Assembly: GCA_024644875.1 (NCBI GenBank)
Contig: JAHEGY010000030.1
Location: 1-44,257 of the forward strand
From: Cyclobacteriaceae bacterium
Lineage (GTDB): Bacteria > Bacteroidota > Bacteroidia > Cytophagales > Cyclobacteriaceae
DNA length: 44,257 nucleotides
Direction of reading: 5' to 3'
The notes beneath the pieces are model-generated. The model had not been told where the DNA came from. It made no database searches and was given only the letters and a program-made list of their open reading frames with translations. Position numbers and translations under genes: made by a program. Every line of letters begins with the position of its first letter. The stretch's first letter is position 1. This document shows positions 1,173 to 7,695 of this stretch, piece after piece.

Positions 1173-3689
1173 TTAAAAATTGACCCGGAACATTATATTG
1201 GGAGTAAAACTTAAAGCATATTGTTGAACTTCATTAATATCAGAATCTGAATCCATCTGATAAAAGATATTTAATATATTCTGCTTATTTATAAGATTCC
1301 ATACCGATGCCCCCAACTCTGCATTTACACTTTCACTTATTCCTATTTTATATTTTGCAGAAATATCTACACGTAAATACTCATCCAACCGGGATGTATT
1401 TGGATCATTATATAAAATATCTTCTCCGGATGTACCCGCTGGTTCAGTATAGGGTTTTCCGGTCCTCCAGTTCAGACCAGCTGATAATTGAAATTTCTGT
1501 GTATGATAACTTGCACCACCGGATACAATATGCCTATTATCAATATTATTGGGGAATACAGATGGTGTGAATTCCGGGAAATAATATTCATTTTTAGCGA
1601 GGGAATAGCTTAGCCACAAATTGAATGCCTTGATTCTTTTATTAAATAGAAAATCCAAACCATATACTTCATAATCGCCAGTGCTTCGTACAAACTGATA
1701 TTGATTCTGAAAGCCCTGGCTTGAAGATGTTATTCCTTCGACTTGTTTAAGATAACCTTCTACACTGATTAATGTCCCGGATTTCTGAAAATGAATACCT
1801 GCTGATAACTGCTTACTCTTCATGATTGGTATGTCCTCGTTATTTGCAAGTATCCATCTTCTTTTCTCCACTCCAAGAAAATCATTTTGTAAATCTATGA
1901 TTTGTGCCGTGGCCTGACTCTTGAATTCGCCAAGGACTTCAAGCGAAAAATATTTGAGGAACTTTTGGTTAAAAGCAATCCTGGGCTCAACGGTCCATTC
2001 ATAGAATTTCTGAAAATAGTTAATTCTAAAACCACCCCTTATGTTTGTGTTTCCGGAATTTGAAATATAATTGGCTTCGGCGAAAAGACTATGGCTTAAC
2101 AAAACCCTTTTAATATATCTCCGGAAAAGAGGATTGTTGATCTCAACAAGATTCCCAATACCTGTTTCTATTAGTTGGTATCCACCGAAAATATCCCAAT
2201 TATTAGAAAAGAGGTATCTCGCATCCAGTTTCAATCCTTTTTCCAACACTTCATTTTCCTGTATCAATCTTTGATCATTATAGAGATCGAAATTAACTGC
2301 AGCCAGATCATAATCAGAAAGATACAGTTGAGCGTTCGTTCTCAATTTTTCATTCCATAATCGATTGTAAACCAGGCCGGCGGCCATACTTGTTTGCTCC
2401 AGTCCGCTTGTTTTTGACTCATTTTCCCCATTAAGAACAGCATTTTCCTGATATTCTATATCATTATAGATTCTCAGGAAACTCAATTCCACTTTATCCT
2501 TGCTAGTTATATTGTAATTATAATTTATACTCAAATCGTGGAACTCAAAATTCTCATCAGAATTTATGAGCGAATCAGGATTATCAGTTGGATTTAGAAC
2601 TTCTGTGTTTCTGAAAACCCTGTCAAAATAACTTTTATATGTAGGGGTTTCTACCAGGTCAGCAATTGACCTTCTCGCAGAGATCTGAAGAGTGGATTTT
2701 TTAAACAGGGGTATATTTATATTTGCATCTGCATTTATCATATTAATGCCGGCACTGCCTGTAACTTTTTGTTTCACCTGGTGATCCGTTTCAATACTGA
2801 GTGTACTTGAAACCGCATCACCTAAAAAGGCACTGGAACCATTTTTTGTAAGGCTCACCCTGTTTGTAATATATGGATTAAAGGCAGATATAAGGCCAAA
2901 AAAGTGACCTGACTGGTACATTTTGATACCGTTCCAAAGAATCAGATTCTGATCATTAGTCCCCCCCCTGACATTTATATCAGATACCGTTTCATCTATA
3001 CTGATTATTCCCGGCAAGTATTGTATAGTATGTAAAACATCCGGATCGGTAAGCCCCGGAAGGATTTCAAGTATTTCTGCATCGATCGTATATACTCCTT
3101 CAGCATCCTTTTCAATTCCTTCTGAAATAAAATTTGTTATAACCAGTTCCTTAAGTTTTATTCGTTGTTGATCTAATTTTATAGTATCACATCTATCTTT
3201 TGAAAACTGGAATGCTGGTTTAATGAGATACTCGTATCCCAAATATCGAAAAAGTACAGAATCCCTACGAGTTAAACCTGTAAGCCTGAATCCCCCGCTT
3301 TCATTGCTGACCGTAAATTTTGATGGCCCTTGAATAGTCGCACCATGAATGACACGACCATTTTTACTGTCCACAAGAATTCCGCATAAGGTAATATTAT
3401 TCGTTTCAACACGATTAATAGTTATGAACCGATCACTAAGCCGTTGAATGTTTAGGCCGGTTTTATTTTTAAGATATTGAATTGCCTCAGGGAGATCAAT
3501 ACCAGCGGATGGGGGTTTTAAAAATATACCATTGATATCCTCATCCACAAAAGTAAATGATACTTGATATCTTTCTTCCAGATCAACAAGAATGGCTCCC
3601 AGTGATATTTCCCCATCTTCCTGAGCAGCAATTGAAATATGGATCAAATAGGGAATAATAAATAGAAGAATGTATTTATTCAACTTCAC
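1173..3689 (-). CDS. TonB-dependent outer-membrane receptor with N-terminal STN signalling domain
   Basis: An 838-residue outer-membrane receptor. In order it shows a signal peptide (1-22, ending SIAAQ), an STN/secretin-like domain (about 25-92), a carboxypeptidase-regulatory-like beta domain (about 100-175), a plug (about 197-300, with INVRGG and a GxFFG segment) and a 22-strand-type barrel to the final aromatic residue (ending FRVNF). An STN domain next to FecR and an ECF sigma gene is the hallmark of a receptor that signals ligand binding inward to an anti-sigma factor. No SusD gene follows, so a glycan role cannot be assumed. The start is GTG, inside the last codons of fecR (14-nt overlap), which suggests translational coupling. 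The ligand is unknown. Confidence 0.92.
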   Translation of the reverse strand: MKLNKYILLFIIPYLIHISIAAQEDGEISLGAILVDLEERYQVSFTFVDEDINGIFLKPPSAGIDLPEAIQYLKNKTGLNIQRLSDRFITINRVETNNITLCGILVDSKNGRVIHGATIQGPSKFTVSNESGGFRLTGLTRRDSVLFRYLGYEYLIKPAFQFSKDRCDTIKLDQQRIKLKELVITNFISEGIEKDAEGVYTIDAEILEILPGLTDPDVLHTIQYLPGIISIDETVSDINVRGGTNDQNLILWNGIKMYQSGHFFGLISAFNPYITNRVSLTKNGSSAFLGDAVSSTLSIETDHQVKQKVTGSAGINMINADANINIPLFKKSTLQISARRSIADLVETPTYKSYFDRVFRNTEVLNPTDNPDSLINSDENFEFHDLSINYNYNITSKDKVELSFLRIYNDIEYQENAVLNGENESKTSGLEQTSMAAGLVYNRLWNEKLRTNAQLYLSDYDLAAVNFDLYNDQRLIQENEVLEKGLKLDARYLFSNNWDIFGGYQLIETGIGNLVEINNPLFRRYIKRVLLSHSLFAEANYISNSGNTNIRGGFRINYFQKFYEWTVEPRIAFNQKFLKYFSLEVLGEFKSQATAQIIDLQNDFLGVEKRRWILANNEDIPIMKSKQLSAGIHFQKSGTLISVEGYLKQVEGITSSSQGFQNQYQFVRSTGDYEVYGLDFLFNKRIKAFNLWLSYSLAKNEYYFPEFTPSVFPNNIDNRHIVSGGASYHTQKFQLSAGLNWRTGKPYTEPAGTSGEDILYNDPNTSRLDEYLRVDISAKYKIGISESVNAELGASVWNLINKQNILNIFYQMDSDSDINEVQQYALSFTPNIMFRVNF

Positions 3690-4587
3690 CTGTTAATATG
3701 ATCTGTTGATCTTCAGTTATTTGATAAGAAATATTTTGAGGGATAGTGATAGATTTTAAAGCAAGGATCATGTCTTCATGGGTAAATCTTCCCGTAAAAA
3801 GTACTTCCATATCCACATTTTTCGATACGATCTTTACATTATACTGTCTTTCAAATTCGCTGGTTACCTGATGAAAAGGAACACTTTTAAAGGCACTTTC
3901 ATCATTCAGCCAGACGGGTTCGAACTCATTAACAAAATTACTCCTGATTACTTCCCCATTTACAACCCTAATTGAGTGGTATGCAGGTAATTCACTTTGA
4001 TCAGCACTTGTTTTAACGCTCACAAGACCTTCATAACATACCACCTCGAAGAAATCCTGGCGTTGTTTCACATTGAATTGGGTTCCTAAAACACTTACAG
4101 TACCTGAAGAAGTCTGAACATCAAATTTTGATCCCTTTTTCACTTTAAAGAAAGCTTCACCTATAAGCTCCAGGTTTCTGTTTTTATCCCATGTCCTTTT
4201 ATTATAAGTAATTTTTGATACTGAATTCAGGATAACAACAGATGAGTCCGGAAGCAGAACTTCTTTTGATTCGGCGATGCTGGTTTCAATTGTTGCAGGC
4301 AGGTAATATGAAATAATTAAATAACCGCCTACAACAATTGTTAACATAGCTGCTACTCTGAGTAATGTTTTTCGCCATTCTATCTTTATTTGTTTTCCTC
4401 TTTTACTTTTATCCCTGTTTAGCCTTTGTAATTCTGCTTCAGTGTCATAGTCAGGAGCCCTAAATCGCTGGATCGAATCAGACAATTTCCTCAGTTCTTT
4501 GAAGGAATCCGTTTTTTCAAATCGGGATCGCTCTTCCTCAGTCAAGGTACCGTTCAACCACTTCTCTATATATTGATCAGTATTCAT
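3676..4587 (-). CDS. FecR-family anti-sigma factor
   Basis: A 303-residue single-pass inner-membrane regulator. The cytoplasmic N-terminus (1-73) has the short helical anti-sigma segment, one transmembrane helix lies at about 77-96, a periplasmic FecR domain covers about 100-195 (with GEAFFKVKKG and SVLGTQFNV), and a DUF4974-like C-terminal domain covers about 230-300. In this family the periplasmic part contacts the STN domain of the receptor and the cytoplasmic part holds or activates the ECF sigma factor. It is encoded 60 nt after the sigma gene and overlaps the receptor gene, so the three form one cell-surface signalling unit. A predicted sigma-specific promoter sits directly upstream. 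Confidence 0.92.
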   Translation of the reverse strand: MNTDQYIEKWLNGTLTEEERSRFEKTDSFKELRKLSDSIQRFRAPDYDTEAELQRLNRDKSKRGKQIKIEWRKTLLRVAAMLTIVVGGYLIISYYLPATIETSIAESKEVLLPDSSVVILNSVSKITYNKRTWDKNRNLELIGEAFFKVKKGSKFDVQTSSGTVSVLGTQFNVKQRQDFFEVVCYEGLVSVKTSADQSELPAYHSIRVVNGEVIRSNFVNEFEPVWLNDESAFKSVPFHQVTSEFERQYNVKIVSKNVDMEVLFTGRFTHEDMILALKSITIPQNISYQITEDQQIILTGEVE

Positions 4588-4606: not shown

Positions 4607-4636
4607 TATAACAGTTTAATGATCATTTTTCCTACC
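4607..4636 (-). promoter_or_regulatory. Predicted ECF-sigma promoter of fecR-TonB receptor operon
   Basis: On the minus strand the sigma-fecR gap contains GGTAGGAA (4636 to 4629), 14 nt, then CTGTTATA (4614 to 4607), ending 19 nt before the fecR ATG. The same two blocks with the same 14-nt spacing occur in front of the divergent lipoprotein at 5255-5284. The GGAA core resembles known ECF -35 elements. Assignment to the adjacent sigma factor is inferred from the shared sequence and context. Confidence 0.6.
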
Positions 4637-4647
4637 ATGGGACTCAA

Positions 4648-5157
4648 TTAAATTTTACCTACCTGTTCTTTTAATTTTTTTAGTGCAGTATATATTCGCT
4701 TTTCCACAGCCTTCCGTGAAATTCCCAGCATTTCAGCTATTTCCTGATGTCGTTTTCCATCAATTCGATTCAAGAGAAAGGCCGTTCTTTGTTCTTCTGT
4801 CAGGTTTTCAATGCCGGTTTTTAATTTCTCCATATATTCCTTTTCCTCTAACAGGTACTCAGGAGATTCAGTGTTATGGTCTTTGAGATCTTCCCTGCTG
4901 GAATAATTTAAAGCTGTTTTCTTCCTGGAAAGCTCATTAAGCATCAGCCGGTTGGCTACAGTGAAAAGAAATGATCTGGCCTTCCCGGGTAATATTTTAT
5001 GACAATTATCCCAAAGTTTTAAAAATGCTTCCTGGACGAGGTCTTTAGGATTATTATCCATTCCATATTTATAATACAGAAAATCATGAAGTTCCCTCGA
5101 ATGAAGCCTGAAGATCTCATTAAACTTCTCCTCTTTACATATATTATCCGTGGACAT
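4648..5157 (-). CDS. ECF-type RNA polymerase sigma-70 factor (FecI-like)
   Basis: A group-4 sigma factor of 169 residues from the ATG at 5157. An in-frame GTG at 5217 would add 20 residues, but those do not look like the family N-terminus, so I prefer the ATG. Region 2 is visible (DLVQEAFLKLW, about 39-50, then RSFLFTVANR), as is region 4 with its helix-turn-helix (GKRHQEIAEMLGISRKAVEKR, about 132-152). It would bring RNA polymerase to the promoters of the receptor operon and probably of the divergent lipoproteins. Its partner anti-sigma factor is the FecR protein encoded next. I see no copy of the predicted sigma promoter in front of this gene, so it may be made at a basal level. Confidence 0.9.
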   Translation of the reverse strand: MSTDNICKEEKFNEIFRLHSRELHDFLYYKYGMDNNPKDLVQEAFLKLWDNCHKILPGKARSFLFTVANRLMLNELSRKKTALNYSSREDLKDHNTESPEYLLEEKEYMEKLKTGIENLTEEQRTAFLLNRIDGKRHQEIAEMLGISRKAVEKRIYTALKKLKEQVGKI

Positions 5158-5254
5158 AGAGAAAATCCAATATCTTGATATAGCATTATATAAAGTGTAA
5201 ACGTATTTATTTAACACCCTATATTTAAATTTTTCTGATTTTTTTTTAGGTCGG

Positions 5255-5284
5255 GGTAGGAATTTCGTTGGTTGGTCTGTTTTA
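5255..5284 (+). promoter_or_regulatory. Predicted ECF-sigma promoter of the divergent acidic lipoproteins
   Basis: GGTAGGAA (5255-5262), 14 nt, then CTGTTTTA (5277-5284), 33 nt before the ATG at 5318. It matches the element ahead of fecR in both blocks and in spacing. A run of T residues lies just upstream. The direct observation is the match. Control by the adjacent sigma factor is inference. Confidence 0.6.
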
Positions 5285-5317: not shown

Positions 5318-6751
5318 ATGAAAACTAGCTTAAGATTACTCACGCTTGTATCAATGATCGGCCTGTTGCTTTTCTTTGGATGTCAGCAGGATGTTACAGA
5401 GATCATTGAGGCTCCAACCGCAGAGGTTATCACACCTGACTCAAAGGTGGCAGAACTTGTTCAACGTACCGCGATGAGAGACGGATCCGAAGATAATATT
5501 ATTGATAAATCCAGTTGTTCATCAATCGTATTACCAATAACTGTCGTAGTTAATGGATTGGAAATACACCTTGATTCAGAGGAAGATTTAGTAACTGTGG
5601 AGAAAATTCTTGATCAATTCGAATGGGACGATGATATCATAGAAATTCTTTTCCCGATAACTGTTATACTCGCTGATTACACTGAACTTGTAATCAATAG
5701 TGATGACGACCTGGAGACACTCTGGGAATCATGTGGTGAAAATGAAATTGATGATGATATTGAATGTATAGACTTTGTTTATCCTTTCACCATTTCAGTA
5801 TTCGATTCTGAGAACCAGCTATCGGATGTAACCACCGTAGAGAACGATGAACAACTCCATTATTTCTTTAAAGAATTTGAGGACGATGAGGTAGCCAGTA
5901 TTAATTTTCCTATTACTGTTGTCCTTTCAGATGGTTCAGAATATGTTGTTAACGATCATGACGAACTGGAAAACCTGATAGATGCTGCAAAAGATGATTG
6001 TGATGAGGATGATGACAATGATTACAATGACGATGATGTGGACGACTCAGACTTGCGCCAAGTATTGGTAGATGGCCTGTGGGAAGTCACAAAATTCATG
6101 GATGAAGAAGACGAGACGGCAATATTTGATGGATTCGTTTTCGATTTTCTTGAAAATGGTGTCGTTGAGGTAAGCAAAAATGGTCAGGGATACCGTGGTG
6201 AGTGGACAACCTATGGGGATGAGGGTACATTGGAACTGGAACTGTTTTTTGGTGATGAATACCCTTTGGCAGAAATCGTTGATGACTGGGACCTCATAGA
6301 ATTTGATGGAAATATTATAAAGCTAAAAGACATAAGCGGTGGAGATGGTTCTGTTGAATACTTGACCTTTGAACGTCCTACCGACAATGGAGGAGGAGAA
6401 CCAAATGCCTCTTTATCCGATATCTTAATCGAAGGTACCTGGGTGGTAGCTAAATACAATGACTCCGGGGATGATGAAACATTGGATTATAACGGATTCT
6501 CCTTTGATTTCTTGGAAAATGGCACTGTGGTAGCTACAAAAAATGATGATGTTGTAGAGGGAACCTGGTCAGTAAATACAGATAGCGGTCAGGAAAAGTT
6601 TATACTGGATTTTGGAGAAACACTTCCTTTGAATGAATTCAATGATGATTGGGATATTGAGGATGTATTGGAAAACCGTGTGGAATTTCACAGCATAAGT
6701 GGGGGTGATGGCACCTTGGATGTTCTTGTTTTCGAAAAAGAAACAATGTAA
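5318..6751 (+). CDS. Acidic lipoprotein with four PITV-type repeats and two lipocalin-like repeats
   Basis: A 477-residue secreted lipoprotein of unknown function. The signal peptide ends at LLFFGC, placing the lipidated Cys at 22. Residues 70-225 hold four related units of about 30-45 residues, each opening with a beta-strand motif (LPITVVV, FPITVIL, YPFTISV, FPITVVL) and followed by a D/E-rich element such as NSDDDLE. An Asp-rich linker (about 226-246) follows. Then come two copies of a roughly 105-residue lipocalin-like domain (about 246-352 and 365-473), each with a GxW start, a FDFLENG strand and an ISGGDG turn. The start is ATG 5318; a TTG 6 nt earlier is unlikely. It is divergent from the sigma-FecR-receptor operon and carries a matching promoter, so it is probably part of the same response. 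Strong acidity suggests binding of cations or basic ligands, but that is inference. Confidence 0.85.
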   Translation: MKTSLRLLTLVSMIGLLLFFGCQQDVTEIIEAPTAEVITPDSKVAELVQRTAMRDGSEDNIIDKSSCSSIVLPITVVVNGLEIHLDSEEDLVTVEKILDQFEWDDDIIEILFPITVILADYTELVINSDDDLETLWESCGENEIDDDIECIDFVYPFTISVFDSENQLSDVTTVENDEQLHYFFKEFEDDEVASINFPITVVLSDGSEYVVNDHDELENLIDAAKDDCDEDDDNDYNDDDVDDSDLRQVLVDGLWEVTKFMDEEDETAIFDGFVFDFLENGVVEVSKNGQGYRGEWTTYGDEGTLELELFFGDEYPLAEIVDDWDLIEFDGNIIKLKDISGGDGSVEYLTFERPTDNGGGEPNASLSDILIEGTWVVAKYNDSGDDETLDYNGFSFDFLENGTVVATKNDDVVEGTWSVNTDSGQEKFILDFGETLPLNEFNDDWDIEDVLENRVEFHSISGGDGTLDVLVFEKETM

Positions 6752-6801: not shown

Positions 6802-7641
6802 ATGATGAAAAATTTGAAAAACCTGATTCCATTATTATTAATCATTATTGGATTATTCCTGACCAGTTGTGGAGAGGATGTTGATCCCAACCTGGCAGAT
6901 GTTCAGCTGAAGATTAAAGCTACTTCGAATGTTGGTGAATTTGACGCCAGGGGAAGGACCCTGGAAGATCATATTACATTCAACCAGGTTCTGCTGGGTG
7001 TTACAGAGATTGAATTTGAATCAATTATTGACGACCATTCAGATGATCACAGTGGAAGTGATAATAGTGGCGACGATGATGATTCTGATGATGACAGCAA
7101 TGATGACTCCAGCGATGATGATTCGAGTGATGACGATTCTGATGACTCTTTTGACGATTCTGATTTCGATATAGAATTTGAAGGAAAATTCGTGGTAGAT
7201 CTGATTGCAGGAACCAGCAATCCTGATTTTGGTGTTGCGGATGTTTTACCGGGTGTATATAAGGAAATTGAATTAAAGCTGGAACCGATCCTTGAAAATG
7301 GCCATTCAATCTATATTGAATTGACGTATAATGTCGATGGTTCTGAGCCTGTAGTTATTCAGTATTCTAGTGACAGGCATATCGAGTTCGAAATTGAACG
7401 TAAGACAGGGATTCATATTGATGGTGGGGCACTAAATCAGATACTGATATTATTCGATCTTGACCACTTCCTGGAAAGTATAAATATCAATGAAGCAAGT
7501 GCAGATATAGATGGAATTGTCAGAATAAATAGTAATTCCAATTCAGATATTGCGGCAGCTATATGGTCCAAGCTTAATTTAATGCTGGATGCTGGAGAAG
7601 ACCACGATGGGGATGATGATTTTGATGATGATGAGGATTAG
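6802..7641 (+). CDS. DUF4382-like acidic lipoprotein
   Basis: A 279-residue lipoprotein with lipobox LTSC (Cys 23). After a first beta segment (about 33-75) there is a tract of almost only Asp and Ser (about 77-122). A beta-sandwich half follows (about 124-245) with VVDLIAGTS and LPGVYKEIELKLEP, the pattern of DUF4382-type extracytoplasmic domains. The C-terminus is again poly-Asp. The gene lies 50 nt after the preceding lipoprotein gene with no terminator between, so the two are probably co-transcribed. A strong hairpin terminator follows. Function is unknown; the acidic tract may bind calcium or other cations or act as a flexible spacer. The start is the first of two adjacent ATG codons. 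Confidence 0.82.
   Translation: MMKNLKNLIPLLLIIIGLFLTSCGEDVDPNLADVQLKIKATSNVGEFDARGRTLEDHITFNQVLLGVTEIEFESIIDDHSDDHSGSDNSGDDDDSDDDSNDDSSDDDSSDDDSDDSFDDSDFDIEFEGKFVVDLIAGTSNPDFGVADVLPGVYKEIELKLEPILENGHSIYIELTYNVDGSEPVVIQYSSDRHIEFEIERKTGIHIDGGALNQILILFDLDHFLESININEASADIDGIVRINSNSNSDIAAAIWSKLNLMLDAGEDHDGDDDFDDDED
7030..7167 (+). repeat. GAT/GAC/AGT-rich microsatellite-like tract in coding sequence
   Basis: Repeating Asp and Ser codons (GATGATGAC, GATTCTGAT and variants) fill about 138 nt and encode the acidic tract of the DUF4382-like lipoprotein. Units of 3, 6 and 9 nt recur, so in-frame length change by slippage is plausible. Confidence 0.7.
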
Positions 7642-7664
7642 TTGCTCATTTGGTTAATCCAAAA

Positions 7665-7690
7665 AAAATCCCGCTATTTCGCGGGATTTT
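7665..7690. terminator. Bidirectional intrinsic terminator
   Basis: Perfect 10-bp stem AAAATCCCGC / GCGGGATTTT with a 6-nt loop, an A-run before and a T-run after. It sits between the convergent lipoprotein gene (ends 7641) and the small minus-strand gene (ends 7696), so it can serve both. Confidence 0.9.
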
Positions 7691-7695
7691 TTATT

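Follow-up and report, generated by a model that had tools for sequence, protein, structure and literature searches.

Among described systems, the nearest in wiring to the locus presented here is Has (HasI-HasS-HasR) of Serratia marcescens, in which the sigma factor drives the anti-sigma gene and the receptor gene, and not its own gene (PMC9249621). Other iron-uptake sigma factors, according to the same review, drive neither their own gene nor that of the anti-sigma factor (PMC9249621). The Fec system of Escherichia coli (FecI-FecR-FecA) likewise consists of an ECF sigma factor, FecR and a TonB-dependent receptor with a signalling domain. Its sigma gene is also not autoregulated (PMC9249621), and fecIR are read from one housekeeping promoter, the sigma factor not driving fecR. 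In turn, the polysaccharide loci of Bacteroides under ECF/anti-sigma control, such as PUL24 (BT1877-BT1876-BT1875), have a Bacteroidota ECF/FecR-type pair encoded beside a TonB receptor. A promoter inside this gene set is suspected to be that of the sigma factor, and a 5' end was mapped downstream of the anti-sigma gene (PMC11501099).

The window, by which we mean the whole 44,257-nucleotide stretch of Cyclobacteriaceae DNA analysed here, encodes the same three component types as Has, and, as in FecIRA-type loci, the ECF sigma gene adjoins the gene of a FecR-type anti-sigma factor (Table 1). In contrast to Has, no haemophore or secretion genes were seen in this locus, its outputs are lipoproteins, and both the promoter sequence and the phylum are different. 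The locus departs from Fec in that fecR has a predicted sigma promoter of its own, and from PUL24 in that the site lies upstream of fecR. No SusD family member was found among five window proteins, and the locus was thus not classed as SusC/SusD. Neither the motif nor the locus was named in the open-access titles and abstract openings covered by our search.

Table 1. Coordinates of the predicted signalling locus and its promoter elements in the window
Feature	Position	Strand	Evidence and remarks
TonB-dependent receptor, 838 aa ORF	1173..3689	-	Plug 5.8e-8
fecR, anti-sigma factor	3676..4587	-	FecR 2.1e-19, FecR_C 4.6e-10
Predicted ECF promoter, fecR-receptor	4607..4636	-	Upstream block GGTAGGAA 4636-4629, -10 block CTGTTATA 4614-4607
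ECF sigma factor	4648..5157	-	ATG 5157 (longest ORF from 5217); Sigma70_r2 + r4_2
Predicted ECF promoter, LpA-LpB operon	5255..5284	+	Upstream block GGTAGGAA 5255-5262, -10 block CTGTTTTA 5277-5284
LpA lipoprotein, 477 aa	5318..6751	+	Alignments, structure model, fold matches to barrels
LpB lipoprotein, 279 aa, beta-sandwich	6802..7641	+	DUF4382-like relatives; fold nearest MbnP
Terminator-like hairpin, 12 pairs, strong	7663..7692	+	Closes the LpA-LpB operon

The first-pass annotation had placed the pattern GGTAGGAA-N14-CTGTTnTA on both sides of the sigma gene with identical spacing, and we found exactly this. The window holds two exact copies, GGTAGGAAAAATGATCATTAAACTGTTATA at 4607-4636 (minus) and GGTAGGAATTTCGTTGGTTGGTCTGTTTTA at 5255-5284 (plus), both composed of an 8-mer, 14 nt and an 8-mer, and each oriented to the gene that it precedes. 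The blocks are identical and the 14-nt spacers differ. One element lies inside the 60-bp gap between the end of the sigma gene (4648) and the start of fecR (4587), and the other upstream of the divergent LpA gene with its ATG at 5318. A third match in the window (41181) has 3 mismatches. Shuffled windows also give matches of this quality (at up to 3 mismatches a mean of 1.16, with 3 matches reached in 11 of 100 shuffles), so the evidential weight lies with the two exact copies.

A genome-wide scan, proposed earlier as a way to reveal the regulon, returned the two sites of the sigma locus as the only exact copies in the source genome (G000; 5,061,810 bases, 254 contigs) and no convincing additional members. 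At 2 mismatches 13 more places were found, against 12 for the reversed control pattern. The relaxed pattern gave 6 one-mismatch sites against 16 for the control, none in convincing surroundings, and further regulon members in this genome were therefore rejected. The other four FecR loci of the same genome carry no motif copy within 1 mismatch, one of them (L060) ending with its contig before the fecR start.

Conservation of the motif upstream of homologous fecR and lipoprotein genes had been suggested as a check, and the promoters proved to be kept before both. The original pattern was matched exactly in 4 of 98 genomes, the source genome among them (reversed control, 0 of 98), and all three foreign matches are at the orthologous locus, which encodes the same ECF, FecR and lipoprotein. 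With A or G allowed at position 8, the pattern gave 45 sites in 30 of 390 family genomes (6 sites for the control). The sigma locus accounts for 31 of these, and five precede separate lipoproteins (in G058, G154 and G056, and in G228 and G245, which are closely related), homologues of which are found in or beside the LpA operon elsewhere. Five more lie within ORFs, probably by chance, and the remaining four, in G410, G198 (twice) and G237, are ambiguous. The G410 site is at most a doubtful regulon member, as that genome gave no LpA match at E 1e-20 and the homology is weak (27% identity). The exact motifs of G198 (G198:C26:262925 and 263487) and G237 (G237:C82:21385), loci L024 and L025, share a neighbourhood away from the sigma locus and may mark a further regulon member.

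We also sampled loci without the motif, gathering them by the LpA protein. The search yielded 47 matches in 42 of 390 family genomes (E 1e-20), and a scan of named genomes at least 544 LpA relatives, strains of Flavivirga, Maribacter and Winogradskyella among them; of these relatives we kept the best 80. The resulting LpA-drawn set comprises 126 loci, with 13 contigs present twice (e.g., L096 and L133). A site with at most 2 mismatches to the GGTAGGR or TCAGGR form, both derived from these loci after viewing them, is found before fecR in 112/115 loci, before LpA in 119/126 and before the sigma gene in 1/118. The chance of such a site in shuffled windows, for the GGTAGGR form only, is 0.7% (380 nt) or 0.28% (180 nt). 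By comparison, therefore, a sigma-dependent promoter is predicted before the receptor operon, as in FecIRA-type systems, and its position directly before fecR together with the near absence of sites before sigma corresponds to Has-type wiring. When spacers of 11–19 nt were allowed and contigs present twice were included, a distance of 15 nt from 7-mer to 8-mer was the sole best in 155 of 157 GGTAGGR-form sites, with one tie and one site where it was beaten. The GTT of the -10 block is invariant. Between the site and the called start lies a median of 17 nt at fecR and 13 nt at LpA; since starts were taken from the longest ORF, some are called too far upstream. In three of the 126 loci (L124, L126, L195) a poor LpA site accompanies a good or fair fecR site. 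A receptor-drawn set (52 receptor places, 35 fetched, 29 with ECF and FecR) was weaker, with sites before fecR in 22/29 and before LpA in 20/25.

In L097 (5471-8667; G009, contig shared with L156), LpA has a promoter at 1 mismatch and no adjoining cognate ECF gene; the closest ECF and FecR there are related only distantly (63 and 109 bits). In L046 and L047 (G042, G041), distant LpA-like repeat proteins are encoded directly upstream, on the same strand, of another ECF-FecR pair, and the motif is absent.

As for the sigma gene itself, its product matches TIGR02985 (6.2e-31, 107.8 bits) below the cut-off of 126.4. The first-pass annotation had argued from the autoregulation typical of ECF sigma factors. 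This premise failed, as no motif copy precedes the sigma gene in the window and the regulon includes fecR and the receptor; for the main family, autoregulation was rejected on the count of 1/118 given above. Instead, TAnnTTTG, the Bacteroidota housekeeping box (PMC9723704), is present before sigma in 32/118 loci, against 15.4 expected from shuffles, and is depleted before LpA (8/126, expected 21.4) and fecR (7/115, expected 12.0). No exact TAnnTTTG was seen in the stretch of the window checked by eye. Judging from these counts, the sigma gene is probably read by the housekeeping sigma factor and stands outside its own regulon. In two of the 29 receptor-drawn loci, the divergent paralogues L233 and L234 (G448:C11, G770:C6), a motif-like site precedes sigma; thus, autoregulation may have arisen there.

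The conserved sites fall into four variants: GGTAGGA, GGTAGGG, TCAGG..GTTGTT and TTTGGGAC..GTTGTT. After removal of repeated site pairs and of loci without a variant at up to 2 mismatches at both sites, 92 distinct loci were left, and in 88 of them the fecR and LpA promoters are of the same variant (permuted mean 37.6, maximum 53, in 10,000 permutations that ignore kinship). On a tree built quickly from 107 sigma sequences, the distribution of the variants requires 9 changes, against 46 when the labels are shuffled; GGTAGGG accounts for 2 changes, of which well-supported branches force just 1. The variants are also mirrored in region 4 of the sigma factor, where residues 147, 150 and 153 are S, A and K with GGTAGGA and GGTAGGG (few exceptions) and T, V and Y or H with TCAGG and TTTGGGAC. 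From an alignment with a solved SigE and the sigma-H sequence, we take residues 153 and 157 to be the counterparts of S182 and R186 of Mycobacterium tuberculosis sigma-H. In sigma-H, S182 and R186 contact G-33 and G-34 of a GGAA-type -35 element, and the -10 element is also GTT (PMC6411747). It appears from these comparisons that in many Bacteroidota the promoter variants have changed together with the sigma factor that would read them. Such matched changes of promoter and recognition helix provide a natural series for studying how ECF sigma factors read DNA and could be useful for building non-interfering sigma-promoter pairs. A loose parallel is the TGTT near the -10 position of two SigW-1 promoters of B. 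thetaiotaomicron (PMC12596196). According to the start-site study of Flavobacterium psychrophilum, the role of its seven ECF sigma factors in its one ECF-type motif has yet to be determined (PMC9723704).

The receptor is taken to consist of an N-terminal signalling domain, a CarboxypepD_reg-like domain, a plug and a barrel. Among its relatives, Plug was matched in 16/16, FecR_C (STN-like) in 8/16 and STN in 2/16 at E 0.01, and all seven relatives scanned at E 1 gave an N-terminal signalling match at about residues 27-95. The window receptor gave no Pfam signalling-domain match at E 1 and aligns with the relatives over that part. Its gene directly follows fecR in 105/115 loci, and the family is present in 42 of 395 genomes of the phylum. 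The receptors of L148 and L206 (782-783 aa) are without the CarboxypepD_reg-like domain and keep the N-terminal signalling domain. The source genome has a second receptor (L213, G000:C29:2-1288; 428 aa, 60.5% identical to that of the window), truncated where its contig begins; a second LpA did not turn up in the same assembly.

LpA is the most constant partner of the signalling genes and is divergent from sigma in the protein-gathered loci that have both; further lipoproteins vary. As modelled (pLDDT 87.9, pTM 0.51), it is a repeat protein of an undescribed kind that ends in lipocalin-like barrels: four beta-beta-beta-alpha repeats (~68-225) with conserved cysteines and acidic stretches are followed by an acidic linker and two barrels (~244-355 and ~364-477). 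The barrels match 4nw4 in Foldseek (1.1e-9) and reach Z values of up to 10.8 in structure alignment on residues 241-477, so that by predicted fold the C-terminal part qualifies as an eight-stranded lipocalin-like barrel. The bacterial lipocalin-like lipoproteins DUF4822, DUF4847 and potempin E match both C-terminal barrels, and LpA differs from them in its added four-repeat N-terminal part. The window LpA has no Pfam lipocalin match and no Pfam family over the repeats; its relatives show weak matches to assorted Pfam families in up to 5 of 52. L008, L113 and L119 have another C-terminal part, which by eye is DUF4382-like. Acidic residues after the lipobox cysteine are a surface export signal, and from the lipobox and such residues in these lipoproteins we infer that they are probably surface-exposed.

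Both lipoproteins had been assigned to the regulon. The assignment is supported for LpA, which has its own predicted promoter; LpB (6802) has no motif copy of its own in the window and is a member by operon position. We place it in the LpA operon because the gap between the two genes is 50 bp and a terminator-like hairpin is found only after LpB. Elsewhere, among the matches listed, an LpB homologue has its own motif copy in G055, G153, G198 and G237. The LpB model, of modest confidence (67.9), matches MbnP, a protein of the methanobactin operon (PDB 7l6g), with Z 11.5 over 180 residues, the next entry scoring 6.8. Window LpB matches no Pfam family at E 1, and of its relatives L008 matches DUF4382 above the cut-off (2.6e-29) and L171 below it (2.1e-4). 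A copper role suggested by the MbnP match was considered and rejected: the copper ligands of MbnP make His, Met and Trp the residues to compare, and none of these is invariant in nine LpB sequences, so a copper site is not indicated. The window protein also has a long Asp/Ser-rich low-complexity stretch (7040-7165), which most of eight aligned relatives lack or have in a much shorter form.

Comparison establishes that the sites are conserved, oriented and fixed in spacing, that they are coupled to the sigma tree and that they are absent before sigma. This makes a strong comparative case that the promoter pair is real and belongs to a conserved signalling system. Both elements are very probably promoters recognised by the ECF sigma factor whose gene separates them, within a surface-signalling system; direct sigma binding, the start sites and the direction of the signal are what we infer from this. 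The TonB-dependent receptor would sense an outside ligand and signal through its N-terminal domain to FecR. The loaded receptor would make FecR permissive, and FecR would release or activate sigma, which would then transcribe fecR and the receptor gene from 4636-4607 and the divergent LpA and LpB from 5255-5284. Since the receptor and the FecR brake would be co-made under induction, the switch would be self-limiting and reset once the ligand is gone.

A two-block element with fixed spacing would equally suit a transcription factor, and the elements, instead of being sigma promoters, could serve a separate DNA-binding regulator as operators. We regard this as improbable, as their spacing and placement fit a promoter (GTT invariant; 17 nt to the fecR start, 13 nt to that of LpA), no such element precedes the sigma gene, the variants follow the tree and recognition helix of the neighbouring sigma, and the loci inspected, among those listed, have no other regulator gene in common. 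That the pair is due to chance or to a recent duplication, i.e., functionless copied DNA, is scarcely credible: the relaxed pattern does yield chance matches (5 of the 45 sites within ORFs; 6 sites in all for the control pattern), yet in the window the spacers differ where the blocks are identical, and many genera retain the pair.

With the elements taken as sigma promoters, the role of the lipoproteins is less certain. Our preferred guess, a tentative one, is that they capture or handle the ligand of the receptor. It is also possible, and hardly less likely, that they bind the receptor or FecR and tune signalling without ligand capture; LpA as the most constant partner, divergent from sigma, with variable further lipoproteins, would fit such feedback. 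Against this, other regulon lipoproteins are encoded away from the signalling genes (G228, G245, G058, G056), as expected of outputs, and the predicted lipocalin-like barrels suggest small-molecule binding, even if a shared fold shows no function. Extending the preferred guess of ligand capture, we may speculate, with similar reserve, that the locus represents a widespread undescribed Bacteroidota module in which a modular LpA, with a four-repeat scaffold and exchangeable lipocalin-like or DUF4382-like heads, captures ligand for a non-SusC/SusD receptor, and in which sigma has split into several specificities (GGTAGGA, GGTAGGG, TCAGG, TTTGGGAC), so that paralogous systems in one cell could run without cross-talk. 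From this analysis come a promoter code, a regulon and a wiring scheme, all open to testing, for an ECF system found in Cytophagales and Flavobacteriaceae; several unknown families of lipoproteins are thereby linked to a single receptor.

Other genomes add a PepSY-domain lipoprotein and a lipoprotein of ~145 aa to the regulon. In other loci LpA is followed by stand-alone small lipoproteins (36, forming one cluster), which by eye resemble the C-terminal part of LpA. In Flavobacteriaceae, the genes after LpA were considered as functional clues and dismissed: their 442-aa and 292-aa products resemble Ffh and FolD by eye and are therefore ordinary neighbours. In Lutibacter (L137, L138, L141), the genes after LpA encode a product of 764-776 aa and one of 121-122 aa that, by eye, is response-regulator-like.
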